A DNA stretch of 64,000 bases from Candidatus Bathyarchaeia archaeon (GTDB lineage: Archaea > Thermoproteota > Bathyarchaeia > Bathyarchaeales > Bathycorpusculaceae): the NCBI GenBank assembly GCA_041447175.1, contig CP166960.1, forward strand, positions 2,248,519 through 2,312,518, read 5' to 3'. Shown piece by piece: positions 15,032 to 27,225 of the stretch. The position numbers were made by a program, and so were the translations under genes. Under the pieces are notes generated by a model. The model was not told the DNA's origin and searched no databases. It saw only the letters and a program-made list of their open reading frames with translations. Each line of letters opens with the position of its first letter. Position 1 is the stretch's first letter.

Positions 15032-15144
15032 TGGCGCCGGGGAAGGGATTCGAACCCCTGCGAGCACGAAGCCCACTAGCTGGCTTGCCCTTTGTGCAGT
15101 TTTGGATCTCGAGGCTAGCGCGATAACCACTCCGCCACCCCGGC
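15032..15144 (-). tRNA. tRNA-Ser(CGA) with a probable intron
   Basis: Read on the minus strand, acceptor arms GCCGGGG and CCCCGGC pair, followed by a G discriminator and encoded CCA. The T arm is AGGGG-TTCGAAT-CCCTT. The anticodon stem CTAGC pairs with a GCTAG that lies only after about 26 extra bases, so an intron interrupts the loop just 3' of the anticodon CGA. The variable arm is long, as in class II tRNA. G discriminator, long variable arm and CGA anticodon agree on serine. Its 5' end faces the GH16 gene. Confidence 0.9.
15082..15107 (-). other. Predicted tRNA-Ser intron
   Basis: Placing the splice sites at the canonical position 37/38 removes 26 bases and restores a seven-base anticodon loop (CTCGAGA) closed by a CTAGC/GCTAG stem. 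I did not model the bulge-helix-bulge, so the ends may shift by a few bases. Confidence 0.6.
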
Positions 15145-17766: not shown

Positions 17767-19290
17767 TTATTTGTCCTCTTTGTCCGCGTTGGCTTTTGGG
17801 ATTTTCGAGTTCGCCAAGGCTTCTTCGATGTTTCTGCCTTCGCTAACTTTCATGTGGTATGCAGCGGCGTAATTGCGAGCATCAGGGGTTAAGCCGGGTA
17901 TGACAAACATCAAAAAGTCGCAGTCGATGTCGCTGATTTTGCCGTAGATACGTGTTAGCTCTGGCACTTCAACAGGTTTGCTGGAGATTAAGACTTCAAC
18001 TACTGTGTTGCCGTTGTCGTTTCTTGGCGAAACCCCATTTGAAGGTTCCACCCAGCCAACTCTGCCTAATATCAGGATGTCAAACAGATGCTGAGTCCCT
18101 GAACGTCCACTGACAAACGCGGGGGCAACAATCGAGTATCCAAGCGTTCGAAAGAACTTGATGCATGTTTCCAAAGGCTTAATCTGCTGGAGCTCTTGTA
18201 GCGGAAATTCAGAGTTCGCAGTGTATTTGTAGAGGAAAACTTCAGGTTCCTCATCCACTGCCGCCGTAGATCCACAACTACCGCACTTCGCGTTCAGTAA
18301 GGGTTCACTGTTTAGGGTGTTGCATCCAAGGCAAAGGTATGCAGGTGGCAAAGAGCGGTAATCGGAGCCAATTAGGTGAAGTTTAACCTTGCACTTAGGG
18401 CAGACTAAATCGCCGTTTTCGGTTTCAAAAGCACTTTGCCGCTCCACTGCTCCACACGCGAAATGCTCCAGAAGATTTTCCCGTTTTAACCTCAAAGAAT
18501 GGCACTCAGGGCAAGTTTTTCTTATCCGGATATTGGAGGAGCCACATGCCTTACAGGACAAGATTTTGTCGGTGAGTTCAGCGTTTAGATAGCCTCGACG
18601 GACAAGCGAGTCCAGAGCTTGTCTTGCCCGTTTGGTATCCCAATCCAACTGTGGAATGCCCTCGTATATGTAGCCTTCAGGTTTGTTTACGTTGACCAAA
18701 GGAACAATTTGCGTGACTTTTCCGTAAAGGAAAAGCTCCATTATCGTTTGTTCGTCACGCCGCAGACCTTGTTCATCATGTTCAGAGACATTGGAGGTTT
18801 TGTTCACGGTAAGGGTTGCTGCTTGGAAAGTTGTGCCTGCTTTCGAATTGAATTTGGTCTGACTTTCATTTGTGTTGGCAGGTTTAGATTTTTCAGTTGC
18901 CAAGTTAGATGTAGGGGTTTGTGAACTGCTATTAGTTCGGGTTGCAAATATTTTAGCTGCCAACCCAAAGCCTGAGGCGTAACCTAATTCAAACAGTCCG
19001 ATTAGGCTAACGGTTGCCACTACCAGGGCGTTGTATTTTATTGCAGGATAGGATTGGGATTCAAGGAAAGATATGTAATCGTCTAAAAGATATACGGAAG
19101 AGAAACTACTCCGCAAAGGTCCAACCAAAAGAAAAACTATGCCAGCAACTGCAGCAAAAATTATAATGGGAAGGTATTCTCTGCCGCGTAGTTTTGGAGA
19201 AACAAAGTTGAATTGAACTCCAAGAACCATACCTGTGGAAAGAGCAATCAACGGCGCAGCCGCAGAAACTATTGTTGAAATTTTAATCAC
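17767..19290 (-). CDS. Membrane protein with TackOD1-like zinc domain and C-terminal nuclease-fold-like region
   Basis: A 507-residue protein. Residues 1-115 hold three or so hydrophobic segments; about 120-170 is a Ser/Thr/Asn-rich linker; a predicted winged-helix stretch follows (LFLYGKVTQIVPLVNVN to RRGYLNAELTDK). Next are CxxC ribbons and a segment starting LLEHFACGAVE, with DLVCPKCKVKLHLIGSDYR and a further CxxC pair, matching the Thaumarchaeal output domain TackOD1 pattern as I know it. The last 150 residues include FDILILGR and VVEVLISS, loosely like a restriction-endonuclease fold. The start is GTG 19290, directly after the stop of a small frame. It could sense or regulate polysaccharide synthesis by the GT2 next door; function is not established. 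Confidence 0.6.
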   Translation of the reverse strand: MIKISTIVSAAAPLIALSTGMVLGVQFNFVSPKLRGREYLPIIIFAAVAGIVFLLVGPLRSSFSSVYLLDDYISFLESQSYPAIKYNALVVATVSLIGLFELGYASGFGLAAKIFATRTNSSSQTPTSNLATEKSKPANTNESQTKFNSKAGTTFQAATLTVNKTSNVSEHDEQGLRRDEQTIMELFLYGKVTQIVPLVNVNKPEGYIYEGIPQLDWDTKRARQALDSLVRRGYLNAELTDKILSCKACGSSNIRIRKTCPECHSLRLKRENLLEHFACGAVERQSAFETENGDLVCPKCKVKLHLIGSDYRSLPPAYLCLGCNTLNSEPLLNAKCGSCGSTAAVDEEPEVFLYKYTANSEFPLQELQQIKPLETCIKFFRTLGYSIVAPAFVSGRSGTQHLFDILILGRVGWVEPSNGVSPRNDNGNTVVEVLISSKPVEVPELTRIYGKISDIDCDFLMFVIPGLTPDARNYAAAYHMKVSEGRNIEEALANSKIPKANADKEDK

Positions 19291-22546: not shown

Positions 22547-23797
22547 CTAGTTTTTGGAATGATTATTTTTGGTTGATAGCTTGGTTTGGTAGTTGAGCAG
22601 GCGGCTTAGTCGGCTGTCGGTTCCAAAGACGTCTTGAATGATAGAACGGGAAATTTCAAGGCGGATTTTTTTAGTGCGTCCATAACGACCCATACTCACA
22701 ACCTTGGAGTTTAGCAAACCTATAGCGTCAAGTTCGTTGATAAGGGTGCCGAGTCGGCGCTGGGTCAGGAGGCTTACGCCTAATTCACCGCAGAGTTCAT
22801 TATACACGTCATAGATTTCTCCCGTAGTAGCGCTGCAGCCGCTGGTTTTCCCAAGATGATAAACGCTAAGAATAACCAGTTTAGAGTGGAGTGTTGAGTT
22901 TTTAAGTGCTTCGATGACTTTGTTGTGTTCGATGTTTTTTTCAGCTTCTCTCACATGCTCTTCAGTTACTTTAATTGAGCCTTGGCGTTCAGCCACTTCG
23001 CCTGCAACACGCAACAGGTCCAAGGCTCTTCGGGCATCACCATGTTCAGCTGCCGCTAAAGCAGAACATATGCTGAGTGCAGGTTCAGAGAGAGCGCCTT
23101 CAAAAAATCCGAGTTTTGACCGTTCAAGAAGGATGTTTCGTAGTTCGCTGGCGTCATAGGGTCGGAAAACCATTTCTTCTTCGCTAAGAGAACTAAACAC
23201 GCGTGGGTCCAGAAATTCTTTGAGTCGCAGGTCGTTTGATATTCCAATAAGGGCAAGTTTGCTTCTGTTAAGAGCCTCGTTAATTCGGGTTAATTCATAA
23301 AGGATGCTATCGCCGCGGTTTTTGATAAGGGCGTCAATTTCGTCCAGAATAATGAGAAATATTGTGCGTTTAGCATCTAAACCATTTCGGAATCGGTCAA
23401 ACACTTCTCCCACAGATAACCCCGTGAATGGAATAGATAGGCCTAAACTTTGGCTTAAGCCTGCAAAGATTCGATATTCTGAGCCAGTCATTCGGCAGTT
23501 TACGTAGCAAAACCTGACGGGTGCACCATACTCTTTGGCTTTTGACTCTAAATGGCTTAGGACGAATTTGGTGACTGCAGTTTTTCCAGTTCCAGTTTTT
23601 CCGTAAATGAAGATGTTTGAGCATCGTGAACCTTTCAGCACGGGTGCTACGGCTTGACCTAGTACGCGTATTTGTTGTTCACGGTGTGGAAGACGGTCTG
23701 GTAAATAGTCATGTCTTAGGACTTCACGGTCTTTGAAGAGCTTTGCTTCGTTAACGAATTTTTCGAAGACATCATCTAATATGTTTGGGTTGCCCAT
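22547..23797 (-). CDS. orc1: Orc1/Cdc6 replication initiator
   Basis: A 416-residue archaeal Orc1/Cdc6: AAA+ ATPase with Walker A YGKTGTGKTA near residues 65-74, Walker B LIILDEID, sensor-1 region GISNDLRLKEFLDPRV, then a C-terminal winged helix from about 300. In archaea this protein binds ORB repeats at the origin and loads MCM. It is transcribed away from an 810-base AT-rich spacer holding ORB-like elements, the usual origin arrangement. The neighbouring convergent gene encodes PolD DP1. No other Orc1 gene is in this window; whether a second initiator exists elsewhere is unknown. Confidence 0.96.
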   Translation of the reverse strand: MGNPNILDDVFEKFVNEAKLFKDREVLRHDYLPDRLPHREQQIRVLGQAVAPVLKGSRCSNIFIYGKTGTGKTAVTKFVLSHLESKAKEYGAPVRFCYVNCRMTGSEYRIFAGLSQSLGLSIPFTGLSVGEVFDRFRNGLDAKRTIFLIILDEIDALIKNRGDSILYELTRINEALNRSKLALIGISNDLRLKEFLDPRVFSSLSEEEMVFRPYDASELRNILLERSKLGFFEGALSEPALSICSALAAAEHGDARRALDLLRVAGEVAERQGSIKVTEEHVREAEKNIEHNKVIEALKNSTLHSKLVILSVYHLGKTSGCSATTGEIYDVYNELCGELGVSLLTQRRLGTLINELDAIGLLNSKVVSMGRYGRTKKIRLEISRSIIQDVFGTDSRLSRLLNYQTKLSTKNNHSKN

Positions 23798-23940
23798 GCT
23801 TGATCCTCATTTGCTTCAGAGGTTACACCGTTATTTCGGGTGGAACAGATAAAGGCTACAGTTTAAAAAAATAGTTGGGAAGCTAAACATTCCTAAAACT
23901 TGATGATAATTCTTTGAGATTACAGGTAGGAAAGACAGGC

Positions 23941-23964
23941 ACACCCCAAAATTTCTACTGGAGA
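23941..23964 (-). promoter_or_regulatory. ORB-like Orc1 binding site A
   Basis: On the minus strand this reads TCTCCAGTAGAAA, then TTTTGGGGTGT, close to the archaeal ORB consensus TTCCAGTGGAAAC-AA-GGGG. It shares TCCAGTAGAA with site C. Confidence 0.6.
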
Positions 23965-24128
23965 CTTTAATACTCTTGTGAGAGTATGTAAGATATAGTA
24001 GTAGAATAATAATACTCTGTGTGGTATTATTCAAGGAAGTATATTAATAATTATTGTTAAAGATTTTAGATTAGTAAACTATAAAATTTTTTTATACACC
24101 CAACAATCGGCTATTTACTAAGAGTTGT
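23965..24128. other. Candidate duplex-unwinding element
   Basis: Strongly AT-rich interval, including runs such as AATAATAATACT and TATTAATAATTATTG, lying between two oppositely oriented ORB-like sites. Position and composition fit an origin unwinding element. Confidence 0.5.
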
Positions 24129-24150
24129 TGGAGCGGAAATGAAGGGGTGT
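24129..24150 (+). promoter_or_regulatory. ORB-like Orc1 binding site B
   Basis: TGGAGCGGAAATGAAGGGGT matches the ORB core GTGGAAACGAAGGGG at nearly every position and points away from the AT-rich element. Confidence 0.65.
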
Positions 24151-24385
24151 CTCTCTGAACCCAAAAAGTAACATATTTTTGCTCTTTTTTCTGGCTGTAT
24201 TTTCCCCTCGAAGCCTTGTTCAAAAAATCAGTTTCATTTTTTTCTTCTAACTTTCCTCTGTGGTCTTCACAACCTCTTTACACTTCACAAATCTGTGAAT
24301 ACACTGTGAAAACCCAAATATAACTACTCGTATTTCTCCTCCTTACCGCTAAAACGGATTGATTTATGGCTTTTTACAGTAAACC

Positions 24386-24412
24386 ACACCCCCCTTGACT
24401 TCTACTGGAAAA
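24386..24412 (-). promoter_or_regulatory. ORB-like Orc1 binding site C
   Basis: On the minus strand it reads TTTTCCAGTAGAAGTCAAGG followed by GGGGTGT, with an extended G-run like classical ORB elements. It lies 240 bases beyond site B in the opposite orientation. Confidence 0.6.
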
Positions 24413-24607
24413 TGCGAACTAACCCTTTCCTGTAATTTTTTAGAAGATTGGAATTCTTGTGAACCTTGTTATCCCAAAATATCTGTAAATTCACGTTATT
24501 TTCGTTATTAGACGTGTTTTTTGGCTTTTTACATTTTTTGTTTTCACCGTAACAGCTATTAGGTGTGAAACGTAGAGTTGTGAACGCCGTTAAGGTGTAC
24601 TCTACAG

Positions 24608-25039
24608 ATGCCAGCTCGTAAAATGCGGGTAGAGCTATTCGACAGCGAAGGCAACCGATACACAGTTGCCTTTGAAGGCCAAATAACTAGAGATAAGGCT
24701 TTACGGCTTTTGGATCTGGTAGAGTTGCTTGGAGGCATGCCGGGAGAAACTCCAACTTCCAGTGGAGCTACAGCTCAAGCGGCTGGTAGCCTGTCACGGT
24801 TTGAGAAAGTTCGTGCCGTGGTTCAGAAGAGTTTTCCGCTTGTATGGTTTTCCTCAAAAGATATTCAATCGGTCTTTGAGCAGGAGCTAAAAGAACCCAT
24901 TAGTTTAAGCACTGTTTCCACTTACCTTTCACGCATGGCAACCAAGGGCTTTTTAGTTAGAACGGGAAGCGCCAGCAATTTGAAGTATAAAGTATCAACA
25001 GCTACTCCTCATGCTGTCATAAAACAGAAATTGAAGTAA
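24608..25039 (+). CDS. Small winged-helix protein next to the origin
   Basis: A 143-residue protein I cannot name. Residues 1-45 look like a small beta/alpha domain (KMRVELFDSEGNRYTVAFEG). A Gly/Ser/Thr/Ala linker follows, then a winged-helix from about 62, with a likely recognition helix in LSTVSTYLSRMATKGFLVRTG. It reads away from the origin with no close operon partner; the next gene is convergent. DNA binding is likely by fold. Position between the Orc1 site cluster and the repeat region makes a replication-linked regulatory role conceivable, which is inference from location only. Confidence 0.65.
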   Translation: MPARKMRVELFDSEGNRYTVAFEGQITRDKALRLLDLVELLGGMPGETPTSSGATAQAAGSLSRFEKVRAVVQKSFPLVWFSSKDIQSVFEQELKEPISLSTVSTYLSRMATKGFLVRTGSASNLKYKVSTATPHAVIKQKLK

Positions 25040-25073
25040 CCAACCATTGGTTGCTCTTGTAACCAATTTGTTT

Positions 25074-25874
25074 CTATGTGGCTGACGGCTCTGGTTTTTG
25101 CAGCATTGTTTCCATTTCTTTTTTAACGCTGTACTTAAATGGTAATTTGCCTGTTTCTCTTTCTAAGTATCCTTCTTCGTAGAGCTTCTTCATGAGCCTT
25201 GAGGTGTGTTCCCTGCTCAATTGCACTTTCTCTTTGATTTCTGGAGCCGTCTTTGGTCCTTGAGCAGACAAAAACTCCAGCACTTGAACTTCCGTTTCTG
25301 TCAAGGAAGCCATGGCTTTATCCCGCTTTATGGGAACCACAGGCATCACAGGAATTTCAGTTTCAGATTTCACTTCAGGAACCGCTGACAGTTTTTCAAG
25401 TTGCTCTTCAATGACCACAAGTTTATTTTTTAACTCTTCTTGTAGCGACTCAAGGTCTGTGAGTTTATTTTGGATTTTAGTTGTGTCAACATTGGCTACT
25501 TTCTCCAAAGTTTTCACATTCACATCTGAGACTGCACCCAGAGTGCTGCTTATGCTGTCAATTTGAGTATTTAACTGATTGACCTGAATTTCAAGAGGAA
25601 TTACCATATTTTCGATGTATTCTGCTTTTCTTAGTCCTGCTTCAGCTGTAGATGCATTAATCTCTACTTTGTAGGCTACGTTCTGTATTTTCTCTGCCTC
25701 CCGTTTGAGTTCCCGGTTAAAACTTAGCACCACATCCTCCACGGTGTCTTTGGCTTTTTCATATTCTTGCTTTGCTTTCTGCAGTCGCCTGTAGTATTCA
25801 ATGGCGGCATAACTTGTAGTAGCGAGTAAAACTGTTAAGAGAACTCCTACCAAAGCAACTGTTATATCTACCAA
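25074..25874 (-). CDS. Membrane-anchored coiled-coil protein with C-terminal winged helix
   Basis: A 266-residue protein of unknown function. One N-terminal membrane segment (about 3-25), then a long charged helical region to about 165 with heptad-like patterns (AKQEYEKAKDTVEDVV, DLESLQEELKNKLVVIEEQL), a short Pro/Val linker, and a MarR-like winged helix (about 190-255: LTETEVQVLEFLSAQGPKT and REHTSRLMKKLYEEGYLERE). It could tether DNA to the membrane through a coiled-coil stalk. The repeat array CGTGATTT x4 begins 12 bases in front of its start codon, so it is probably autoregulated or part of the same locus. Similar anchored wHTH proteins exist in archaea without assigned roles. Confidence 0.65.
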   Translation of the reverse strand: MVDITVALVGVLLTVLLATTSYAAIEYYRRLQKAKQEYEKAKDTVEDVVLSFNRELKREAEKIQNVAYKVEINASTAEAGLRKAEYIENMVIPLEIQVNQLNTQIDSISSTLGAVSDVNVKTLEKVANVDTTKIQNKLTDLESLQEELKNKLVVIEEQLEKLSAVPEVKSETEIPVMPVVPIKRDKAMASLTETEVQVLEFLSAQGPKTAPEIKEKVQLSREHTSRLMKKLYEEGYLERETGKLPFKYSVKKEMETMLQKPEPSAT

Positions 25875-25885
25875 AGTTTTCCCTC

Positions 25886-25929
25886 TGTGATTTGCTCGTG
25901 ATTTAGGCGTGATTTACACGTGACTTGTG
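25886..25929 (+). repeat. Left array: four 11-bp iterons (core YGTGAYTT)
   Basis: GTGAYTT cores start at 25887, 25898, 25909 and 25920, exactly 11 bases apart: three GTGATTT and one GTGACTT, the last three preceded by C and the first by T. The three spacer bases vary. The array ends 12 bases upstream of the membrane-anchored wHTH gene (start 25874, minus strand), overlapping its promoter region. Confidence 0.85.
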
Positions 25930-26000
25930 CTGTTGCATCACACATCACAGTTCTCCATGGAAAATTTAAGGTTTATGGTTTGTTTCCTTGATGTAATCTA

Positions 26001-26050
26001 TGATGTCACATATCACATTAACGCGTGATGTCTATTATCACAAACAACGT
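26001..26050 (+). repeat. 25-bp direct repeat, two copies
   Basis: Each copy begins TGATGTC and contains ATCACA eleven bases after its start (TGATGT-N5-ATCACA); the second copy starts exactly 25 bases after the first. The remaining positions match partly (ACGCG and ACAACG ends). It uses the same TGAT/ATCA words as the iteron arrays. Confidence 0.6.
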
Positions 26051-26204
26051 GTCCCTCTGATGTGTATAAAAATGCTGAAATTTGGCTTATTTTCTGTTTT
26101 GACCTGTAGTTTATACTTGTTTTGTTTGGTGTCTTTTTTACTGTGAGATGTTTGTTGTCACGTGTGATTTAGAGAGAATTGGGGCTGTTTTTGAGCTCTT
26201 TTTT

Positions 26205-26221
26205 GTGATTTGTGACGTCAC
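26205..26221 (+). repeat. 17-bp GTGA motif with perfect GTGACGTCAC palindrome, left copy
   Basis: GTGATTT followed directly by GTGACGTCAC. An almost identical copy lies at 27102-27118. It overlaps the stop codon of the 159-residue gene. Confidence 0.65.
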
Positions 26222-26697
26222 ATATTGCCTTCTGAGGGTGTGGAAAGGCGTTTTAGGCTTGATTCTATTTCCTCTCTGATGATTTCAATGACCTTTAGAT
26301 GCTCCTGTAACCCATCCATATCATTCGGGAGGTTCTCATGTGCCTCCATATACTCCTTCAATTTATTTGCTATTTCGAGATATGGGTCAAGAGTTGTGGT
26401 CTCAAATACTCCTAAATAGCCTAACAGCAACACTGTGTATATTGACTTTATGACGTTTTCTTTAGACTGATTTAATGTCCTATTAAAGGAACCGCGGCTT
26501 AATTTAGCCTTTGTTAGCCGTAATTTGGCTTTTTCGTCGTACTTTAACGGTTTGCCCGCCATACTTTCGGCTAAAATGTCAATAAGGAGCGTTTCGAGTT
26601 GTGTTCGTGTTAATTGGCTGTTTTTGGAGAGTATTTTGACAACGGGGTCGTTTAATGCCCCGTTTAGCCACAATTGTACGTTGTCTTTAAGCTTCAA
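26218..26697 (-). CDS. Unrecognised 159-residue helical protein between two inverted iteron arrays
   Basis: A predominantly helical, charged protein I do not recognise. It looks conserved in style rather than spurious: ordered segments LTRTQLETLLIDILAESMAGK, KAKLRLTKAKLSRGSFNRTL and NVIKSIYTVLLLGYLGVFE, with the Arg/Lys-rich middle suited to nucleic-acid contact, then a C-terminal helix (YLEIANKLKEYMEAHENL and later EIIREEIESSLKRL). The start is TTG 26697 behind GGAGAA. It is flanked by facing 11-bp repeat arrays and two palindromes, and reads toward the membrane-anchored wHTH gene. A centromere- or iteron-binding role is a hypothesis based on placement and size. Confidence 0.6.
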   Translation of the reverse strand: MKLKDNVQLWLNGALNDPVVKILSKNSQLTRTQLETLLIDILAESMAGKPLKYDEKAKLRLTKAKLSRGSFNRTLNQSKENVIKSIYTVLLLGYLGVFETTTLDPYLEIANKLKEYMEAHENLPNDMDGLQEHLKVIEIIREEIESSLKRLSTPSEGNM

Positions 26698-27101
26698 TCT
26701 TATGTTCTCCGCGTTATGCTGAATGGATACAGTTTTGTATACTTACGCACATTTTAAAAGGTGTCTGCACTATTTTACACCCAAATCAACTGTCTAACTT
26801 CTATAAACTTCCTTTATTTTAAATAAAATGACAAATTTGGGATAAAAATCTAATAATAGGTATAATTTGAGGTTTATATTTAAATAAAGGCGTTTTTCAG
26901 GCGTATTTTTTTCTGTTATTTGGTTAAGTCTAGTCTAAAATGAACTTTTTCTTTAAACATAAACTCTTTCAATTACTTCAAATAGGCGCTTTTACATCAA
27001 TTATTCTTGCCTAAAGAACGACCAAAAGGGCATGCATACGTTTAATCTATCATGCTTATCCTCCTTAAAGCAAGTTAAAAATATCAATTTTTACGCGTGT
27101 T

Positions 27102-27118
27102 GTGACTCGTGACGTCAC
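27102..27118 (+). repeat. 17-bp GTGA motif with perfect GTGACGTCAC palindrome, right copy
   Basis: GTGACTC followed by GTGACGTCAC, 15 of 17 bases identical to the left copy at 26205-26221 and in the same orientation. It directly abuts the right iteron array. Confidence 0.65.
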
Positions 27119-27173
27119 CAATCACATCAAATCACGCCCGAATCACGGCAAAGTCACGGACAAATCACGAGTG
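27119..27173 (-). repeat. Right array: four to five 11-bp iterons in inverted orientation
   Basis: TCAC cores begin at 27132, 27143, 27154 and 27165, exactly 11 bases apart, within AATCACG or AGTCACG units; a fifth AATCACA lies ten bases before the first. On the minus strand the unit reads CGTGATT, the same as the left array, so the two arrays face each other across about 1.2 kb. Confidence 0.85.
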
Positions 27174-27203
27174 ATTGTCACAGAATCTGATGATATCACG
27201 AAC

Positions 27204-27225
27204 CTGTGATGCATCTGTGATGTTG
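27204..27225 (+). repeat. Two CTGTGATG units 11 bp apart
   Basis: CTGTGATG occurs at 27204 and 27215, again 11 bases apart, in the orientation of the left array. It lies just outside the right array and before the nitrilase-family gene end. Confidence 0.55.

Follow-up and report, generated by a model that had tools for sequence, protein, structure and literature searches.

AspA, part of the AspA-ParBA system of the Sulfolobus plasmid pNOB8, is plasmid-borne, is not known to have a membrane helix or a long stalk and works with ParB and ParA; SegB, of the Sulfolobus SegAB system, is not known to have a membrane anchor. In Bacillus, RacA joins a helix-turn-helix (HTH) to a coiled coil and ties origin-proximal sites to the cell periphery, its HTH being of another type and its route to the pole running via DivIVA, not through a membrane helix of its own, whilst ToxR/CadC-type regulators carry a winged helix-turn-helix (wHTH) on a single membrane helix, with the wHTH N-terminal and a sensor domain outside. 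According to a 2016 review (PMC5120986), AspA dimers spread along DNA from a nucleation site, segB always lies downstream of the ATPase gene segA, and the nature of archaeal centromeres is among the outstanding questions; SegB is described as binding palindromic sites upstream of its own cassette, which possibly double as operators and centromere (PMC5120986, PMC11381335). Here we describe a three-gene cluster beside the replication origin (oriC) of a Candidatus Bathyarchaeia archaeon, in a 64,000-nucleotide (nt) stretch of its 2.73 Mb single-contig genome (contig CP166960.1, positions 2,248,519 to 2,312,518; “the window”), which may bear on how origins are placed and segregated in archaea outside SegAB-bearing groups. 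The genes, which we call C143, B266 and A159 (C, B and A for the homologues), lie where an earlier note on this DNA had put them according to the list of open-reading frames (ORFs) (Table 1). We tentatively read B266 as a membrane-tethered, autoregulated protein which binds a repeat array and may hold the origin region at the membrane, a reading to which we give a little under an even chance.

The anatomy that the earlier note had drawn for the middle gene, a membrane anchor, a long coiled-coil stalk and a C-terminal winged helix, agrees with hydropathy, a structural model and Pfam matches. The C-terminal wHTH of B266 matches two profiles above the curated Pfam cut-offs (PF01978, E = 7.6e-9, 35.7 bits against a cut-off of 25.6; PF01047, E = 2.7e-8, 34 bits against 24.6), which places it in the MarR/TrmB winged-helix superfamily, and a fold comparison of the model gives 25 PDB matches at E ≤ 0.001, of which those with a name are MarR- or ArsR-type regulators. 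The hydrophobic N-terminus (mean Kyte-Doolittle hydropathy 2.42 over 19 residues) is followed by positive charges, and the single-chain model, which can be trusted for its domains only (predicted TM-score, pTM, 0.30), gives a helix at residues 2–127, a second at 131–160 and then the wHTH; profile matches to tropomyosin-like chains reflect coiled-coil composition. By hydropathy, 44 of 54 B homologues have the N-terminal membrane helix (21/21 loci of the order, 18/18 further long forms and 5/5 short forms), as does B in all 16 loci from ammonia-oxidising archaea (AOA), and an excess of lysine and arginine on the C side, measured from the ORF starts used, is found in 47 of the 54. The ten homologues without a membrane helix are all the loci of six families (f18, f34, f37, f43, f44 and f47). 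The most conserved part of B is the recognition-helix segment REHTxRLMKKLY, nearly invariant over the order and recurring in AOA and beyond, in step with the conserved DNA half-site described below, which we count in favour of B acting on the array. AspA, a solved centromere-binding wHTH, is among the structure matches (4rs8, TMt 0.69, E = 1.3e-3), as is 5k5q (TMt 0.64, E = 1.9e-3); we count the AspA match towards the anchor reading, and many other wHTH proteins rank alike.

The array consists of iterons with the half-site RTCAC, mostly ATCACA or ATCACG, at spacings of 7 and 11 nt. In the window, four sites lie exactly 11 nt apart at 25886–25919 and an inverted set lies at 27132–27165. Across 35 gaps between A and B (11,377 nt; 6 of 41 gaps were excluded on failing an orientation check for the letters SIYT with at most one stop) we counted 419 RTCAC sites against 22 of the reversed pattern, every gap holding 9–17; among pairs on one strand, 7 nt (102 pairs) and 11 nt (54 pairs) are the prevailing distances, and sites facing head to head are often 6 or 13 nt apart. 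Over 800 kb of the window's own genome no 200-nt segment has more than four sites, whilst the two blocks hold 13 and 10, and a triple 11-nt pattern is confined to these blocks in the whole genome (four overlapping matches, reversed control 0). Among 120 relatives this pattern turns up at 45 places, spread over 29 genomes, and 42 of the 45 are no more than 1 kb from A or B (reversed control 0); in its strict form it is missing from the remaining 91 genomes, whose gaps, where read, hold looser arrays. The iterons are real, far above chance and clustered almost only at this locus.

The earlier note had set the three genes between oriC and the arrays: they do lie beside oriC, but block 1 sits between B and A, and block 2 beyond A. 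It had also taken the left array for the promoter region of the middle gene, with which block 1 agrees, its sites lying 12–45 nt from the B start codon; a start only 12 nt away makes autoregulation likely. In AOA one half-site overlaps the B start codon. These positions, the MarR/TrmB wHTH and the privacy of the array would also suit a membrane-bound one-component regulator that responds to a signal from the membrane or envelope and acts on its own operon only, the origin linkage being inherited gene order. We regard this main rival explanation as rather unlikely, as 9–17 sites in all 35 gaps are many for an operator, the cdc6/oriC order is kept from Bathyarchaeia to AOA, and block 2 lies ~404–519 nt upstream of the A159 start codon (mostly ~360–570 nt in relatives without an inserted gene; L110 has no block 2). 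Block 2 is too distant for an ordinary A159 operator and is hard to read as one, which counts against a plain operator role. The inserted gene is an aminotransferase (cl20; named, like nurA and herA below, by eye from translations), which lies between the nitrilase gene and A159 in L102–L104 and L107–L109, at the place taken by block 2 in other relatives. The view that nearly all order loci have a block 2 was rejected, and loci with this insert were not counted as arrays, because most of their “cluster” at ~610–750 nt falls inside the aminotransferase coding gene.

That presence of the array follows B is our most telling finding. The median peak number of RTCAC sites per 200 nt is 9 in the order loci (n = 21) and 8 in other loci with a long, membrane-anchored B (n = 18), as against 4 with a short B (n = 5), 4.5 with an anchorless B (n = 10) and 2 where A and/or C occur without B (n = 7, loci centred on those genes; for one of them, L238, only A was used, though C143 lies ~7 kb off). 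A peak of at least six sites, a threshold chosen after the counts were known, is reached in 38/39 loci with long, membrane-anchored B, 2/5 with short B, 4/10 with anchorless B and 0/7 without B; peaks with long B and without B differ at p = 1.3e-5 (Mann-Whitney, on related loci that are not independent). In the phylum sample, the DNA upstream of B holds 195 sites over 33 loci, compared with 42 for the reversed control. Where C143 lies away from B (L318, L319, L323–L325), or beside cdc6 without B (L320–L322), there is no RTCAC cluster, with peaks of 2–3. As the cluster is absent without B, these C143 loci included, the array goes with B and not with A, C or oriC, and the contrast of 0/7 with 38/39 makes B its probable ligand.

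The cluster is strongly conserved among relatives. Of the 80 loci kept from relatives found with A159, most come from metagenome-assembled genomes named Candidatus Bathyarchaeota or Bathyarchaeia, the others bearing such labels as Bathycorpusculum, Nitrososphaerota, Crenarchaeota or uncultured archaeon. Among the 120 relatives, A is found in 103, B in 104 (including a few weak matches, such as the retained G106 and G025, with fragmentary matches joined by hand) and C in 100 (G063 has two C matches, of which that on the contig of B was used). Wherever A and B share a contig they are same-strand neighbours (98/98 genomes, gap 121–493 nt), and B and C point towards each other in 93 of 94 genomes, 52 of them within 303 nt and most others ~2.6 kb apart, a distance that in the loci read is filled by nurA-herA. 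The nurA-herA pair lies between C143 and B266 in L097, L099, L100, L101 and L105–L107, and a gap of that size occurs in ~40 relatives. All 20 order loci that were fetched have the cluster adjoining cdc6 and DP1; the A159 of L111 is missing from the synteny listing, where the ORF filter preferred an overlapping frame, but is present in the alignment. G104, in which alone C143 and B share a contig but lie far apart (1.03 Mb), was considered as a case of scatter and rejected, because the breakpoint lies inside nurA and points to rearrangement or misassembly; in this genome (L317, L318) nurA is split into two parts ~1 Mb apart, beside the origin.

Three families (f17, f49 and f46) are ammonia oxidisers, with AmoA in 7/7 genomes tested against 0/9 other genomes. 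In their 16 loci A and B are adjacent throughout, C accompanies them in 15 and GGGPS flanks the opposite side every time; 12 of the stretches include cdc6, whilst the remaining four have a contig end within 0.3–2.5 kb of C143. The order cdc6-oriC-C-B-A-GGGPS-DP2 recurs in AOA, and the arrangement cdc6-oriC-C-B-A-GGGPS, being common to both groups, would be older than the divergence of Bathyarchaeia from AOA, or else both groups kept or gained it.

Outside this arrangement the genes are modular. Profiles over 300 genomes of the phylum match A in 120, C in 183 and B in 234, many of the B matches being weak and of MarR type. B and C occur together without A in f18, f34, f43 and f44, B occurs alone in f37 and f47, C143 is kept with cdc6 in f22 and f39, and in L320–L322 C143 stands beside cdc6 without A or B. 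For the six families with an anchorless B, no genome is among the 120 with an A159 match in the 300-genome profile scan; across families, the sequences indicate, the B membrane helix and the presence of A159 go together, and as the six families may form one clade this is possibly a single event. That each of the three genes can be found without the other two, and that metabolic genes (nitrilase, nadE and GGGPS) share the block, is what would be expected of three unrelated housekeeping regulators kept together as replication genes rarely move; this would leave both the presence and absence of the array with B and the coincidence of membrane helix and A159 unexplained, and we consider it very improbable. 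The earlier note had called the link to the origin positional only. Modular as the genes are, the link now appears more than positional, given the synteny of Bathyarchaeia and AOA, the anchor in 21 order loci and 16 AOA loci and an array which tracks B.

The neighbouring cdc6, the sequence of the gap between cdc6 and C143 and the base skews indicate that the cluster adjoins a real oriC. Elements resembling origin recognition boxes (ORB-like, of the type ACCCC-spacer-TTCTACTGGA) are present in this gap; a loose pattern detects at least one per gap in 29 of 30 loci, those of AOA among them, the exception being L107. Sampled at 40 stretches of 20 kb, AT skew switches sign close to the window and once more at around 0.8 Mb, roughly half the genome away, whilst cumulative GC skew, though weak, peaks in the stretch adjoining the window. 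The motif TTCACA, one base different from the half-site of the B array, is found seven times, at 24255–24600, in the 810-nt oriC gap, against a genome mean of 0.42 per 810 nt and a maximum of 4 in 1920 sampled segments, and 4–9 times in the cdc6-C143 gaps of most relatives (L092–L111); these sites could be a target of C143. Their density, together with C143 being divergent from cdc6 across oriC even in the absence of A and B, is what suggests a role in initiation control, in which B, with C143 at the TTCACA sites, would sequester the origin at the membrane or handcuff it in the manner of plasmid iterons, with no part in segregation. We think this improbable: TTCACA is not enriched in AOA origins (0–2), and RTCAC sites are nearly absent from oriC itself (0–3).

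A second Cdc6, 31% identical, is encoded 1.09 Mb away (L268 15333–16511; G000:C1 ~1183333–1184511) without an RTCAC array, and its neighbours look like molybdenum-cofactor genes. A B266-like gene 8 kb from it (G000:1175383) was considered as marking a second anchored origin and rejected, because its product is a TrmB-type regulator of 309 residues and that stretch lacks an RTCAC cluster (peak 4).

The other two proteins are less readily classified. The A159 model is all-helical (predicted local distance difference test, pLDDT, 81.8); no family was found in Pfam, PHROGs or NCBIfam searches, and a Foldseek fold search gave nothing at E ≤ 0.001. In VIA-align, residues 17–91 match sigma region 4 (2h27, Z 5.6, root-mean-square deviation 3.2 over 63 residues; 2o8x, Z 5.2, 3.5 over 57; 1sc5, Z 4.9, 3.7 over 60), all within the chance range, as Z under 8 is common by chance. 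For C143 there is no family in PHROGs or NCBIfam, and a weak wHTH match falls below the cut-off (PF03965, E = 0.0025); its N-terminal half is conserved and its C-terminal half weakly wHTH-like. Sequence searches of both proteins against the PDB returned nothing convincing.

We infer the following mechanism for the proposed membrane tether. B266 would be a membrane protein, probably N-out and C-in, whose long helical stalk, probably dimerising as a coiled coil, would present a MarR-type winged helix to the DNA, where it would bind RTCAC half-sites 7 or 11 nt apart in the arrays beside oriC. At the block next to its own start codon it would repress its own gene, and on the whole cluster, including the block which is not at a promoter, it would act as a centromere-like anchor, attaching the freshly replicated origin region to the membrane. 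C143 would be a separate origin-side wHTH protein linked to cdc6/oriC, whilst A159 would go with the membrane-anchored B, perhaps as an accessory HTH protein. A further step, which we consider doubtful, is that the cluster is a motor-free archaeal centromere, made up of anchor, coiled-coil spacer and winged helix on iterons, in which origins part with the growing membrane, and which is ancestral to Bathyarchaeia and AOA and kept in most.

Several observations weigh against the tether. The MarR-like structure matches of B266 are generic, its coiled coil is taken from the single-chain model of pTM 0.30, and B lacks the anchor in 10/10 loci of the six families, so that anchoring is not core to the family. 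An array overlapping the promoter is also expected from plain autoregulation, block 2 is missing, degenerate or located elsewhere in the loci with the aminotransferase insert, and within each group compared for the array the loci are related, which makes the counts non-independent. Between DP1 and A159 there is no ParA, SegA or other motor gene in 20/20 order loci, with genes named by homology to the window and by eye; ParA-like genes occur elsewhere in the genome, the best match 1.36 Mb away (G000:911301). A-B pairs with a short B occur with no cdc6 nearby (f23 and f27), and three Bathyarchaeia families (f11, f13 and f15) keep cdc6, C and A with no B at the locus. The earlier note had held that finding the families scattered, or away from origins, would refute its trio, and as a strict trio it is partly refuted, by C143 without A or B, A-B without cdc6 and B without A, whilst the origin-linked form appears ancient.

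In the window, the genes run in the order PhoU-like, DP1, cdc6, the 810-nt gap, C143, B266, A159, nitrilase, nadE, Elf1, GGGP synthase and DP2 (nadE, GGGP synthase and DP2 named by eye; Table 1). Further off, a tRNA is found at 15035–15144 (− strand; 110 nt, perhaps intron-containing) as an Rfam match not given by ARAGORN, and a TackOD1-domain protein at 17767–19290 (− strand) combines zinc ribbons with a hydrophobic N-terminus and a C-terminus that may be restriction-like.

Table 1. Features of the origin-side cluster, in window positions.
Feature	Position	Strand	Description
cdc6/orc1 initiator gene	22547–23797	−	PF09079 E 1.5e-25, PF22703 E 1e-24
oriC, AT-rich intergenic	23798–24607		ORB-like elements at ~23940–23964 and ~24387–24412; seven TTCACA half-sites
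C143	24608–25039	+	From ORF list; small protein, C-terminal winged-helix-like domain, origin-proximal
B266	25074–25874	−	N-terminal membrane helix, long coiled-coil-like helix, C-terminal MarR/TrmB wHTH; probable array ligand
Iteron block 1	25883–26222		RTCAC half-sites, 14 in the 346-nt A-B gap; overlaps B266 promoter region
A159	26218–26697	−	All-helical; residues 17–91 weakly like sigma region 4
Iteron block 2	27101–27220		13 RTCAC half-sites

Literature searches limited to open-licence PMC papers, among them PMC5120986, PMC4010727, PMC5797428, PMC11381335 and PMC7617429, brought up no description of this cluster. The locus points to a single protein and a single DNA array, with one prediction open to testing in cultivated ammonia oxidisers such as Nitrosopumilus, for which a single origin has been mapped (PMC4010727).

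Among the described systems, AspA is a small wHTH centromere-binding protein, and 4rs8 and 5k5q are among the structure matches of B266, but this locus has no ParA or ParB. Like SegAB the cluster is chromosomal, but it contains no segA-like ATPase gene; the ATPase gene beside the DNA-binding gene that marks SegAB and ParABS is lacking, whilst by sequence and position there are centromere-like sites that precede the DNA-binding gene close to the origin. By analogy, the cluster would work like the centromere-protein systems but falls outside their membership, with no ATPase beside it. WhiP of Sulfolobus is an origin-side wHTH protein much larger than C143, which it may resemble in being wHTH-like and encoded beside oriC. 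B266 differs from the ToxR/CadC-type regulators in that its wHTH sits at the C-terminal end of a long helical stalk and hardly any of the protein would lie outside, and in its putative target, an array beside oriC. A conserved, unnamed three-gene cluster beside an archaeal oriC, with private repeats, is a candidate origin-to-membrane tether, and if this reading is true it would give archaea an equivalent of the old replicon idea, in which origins are attached to the membrane.

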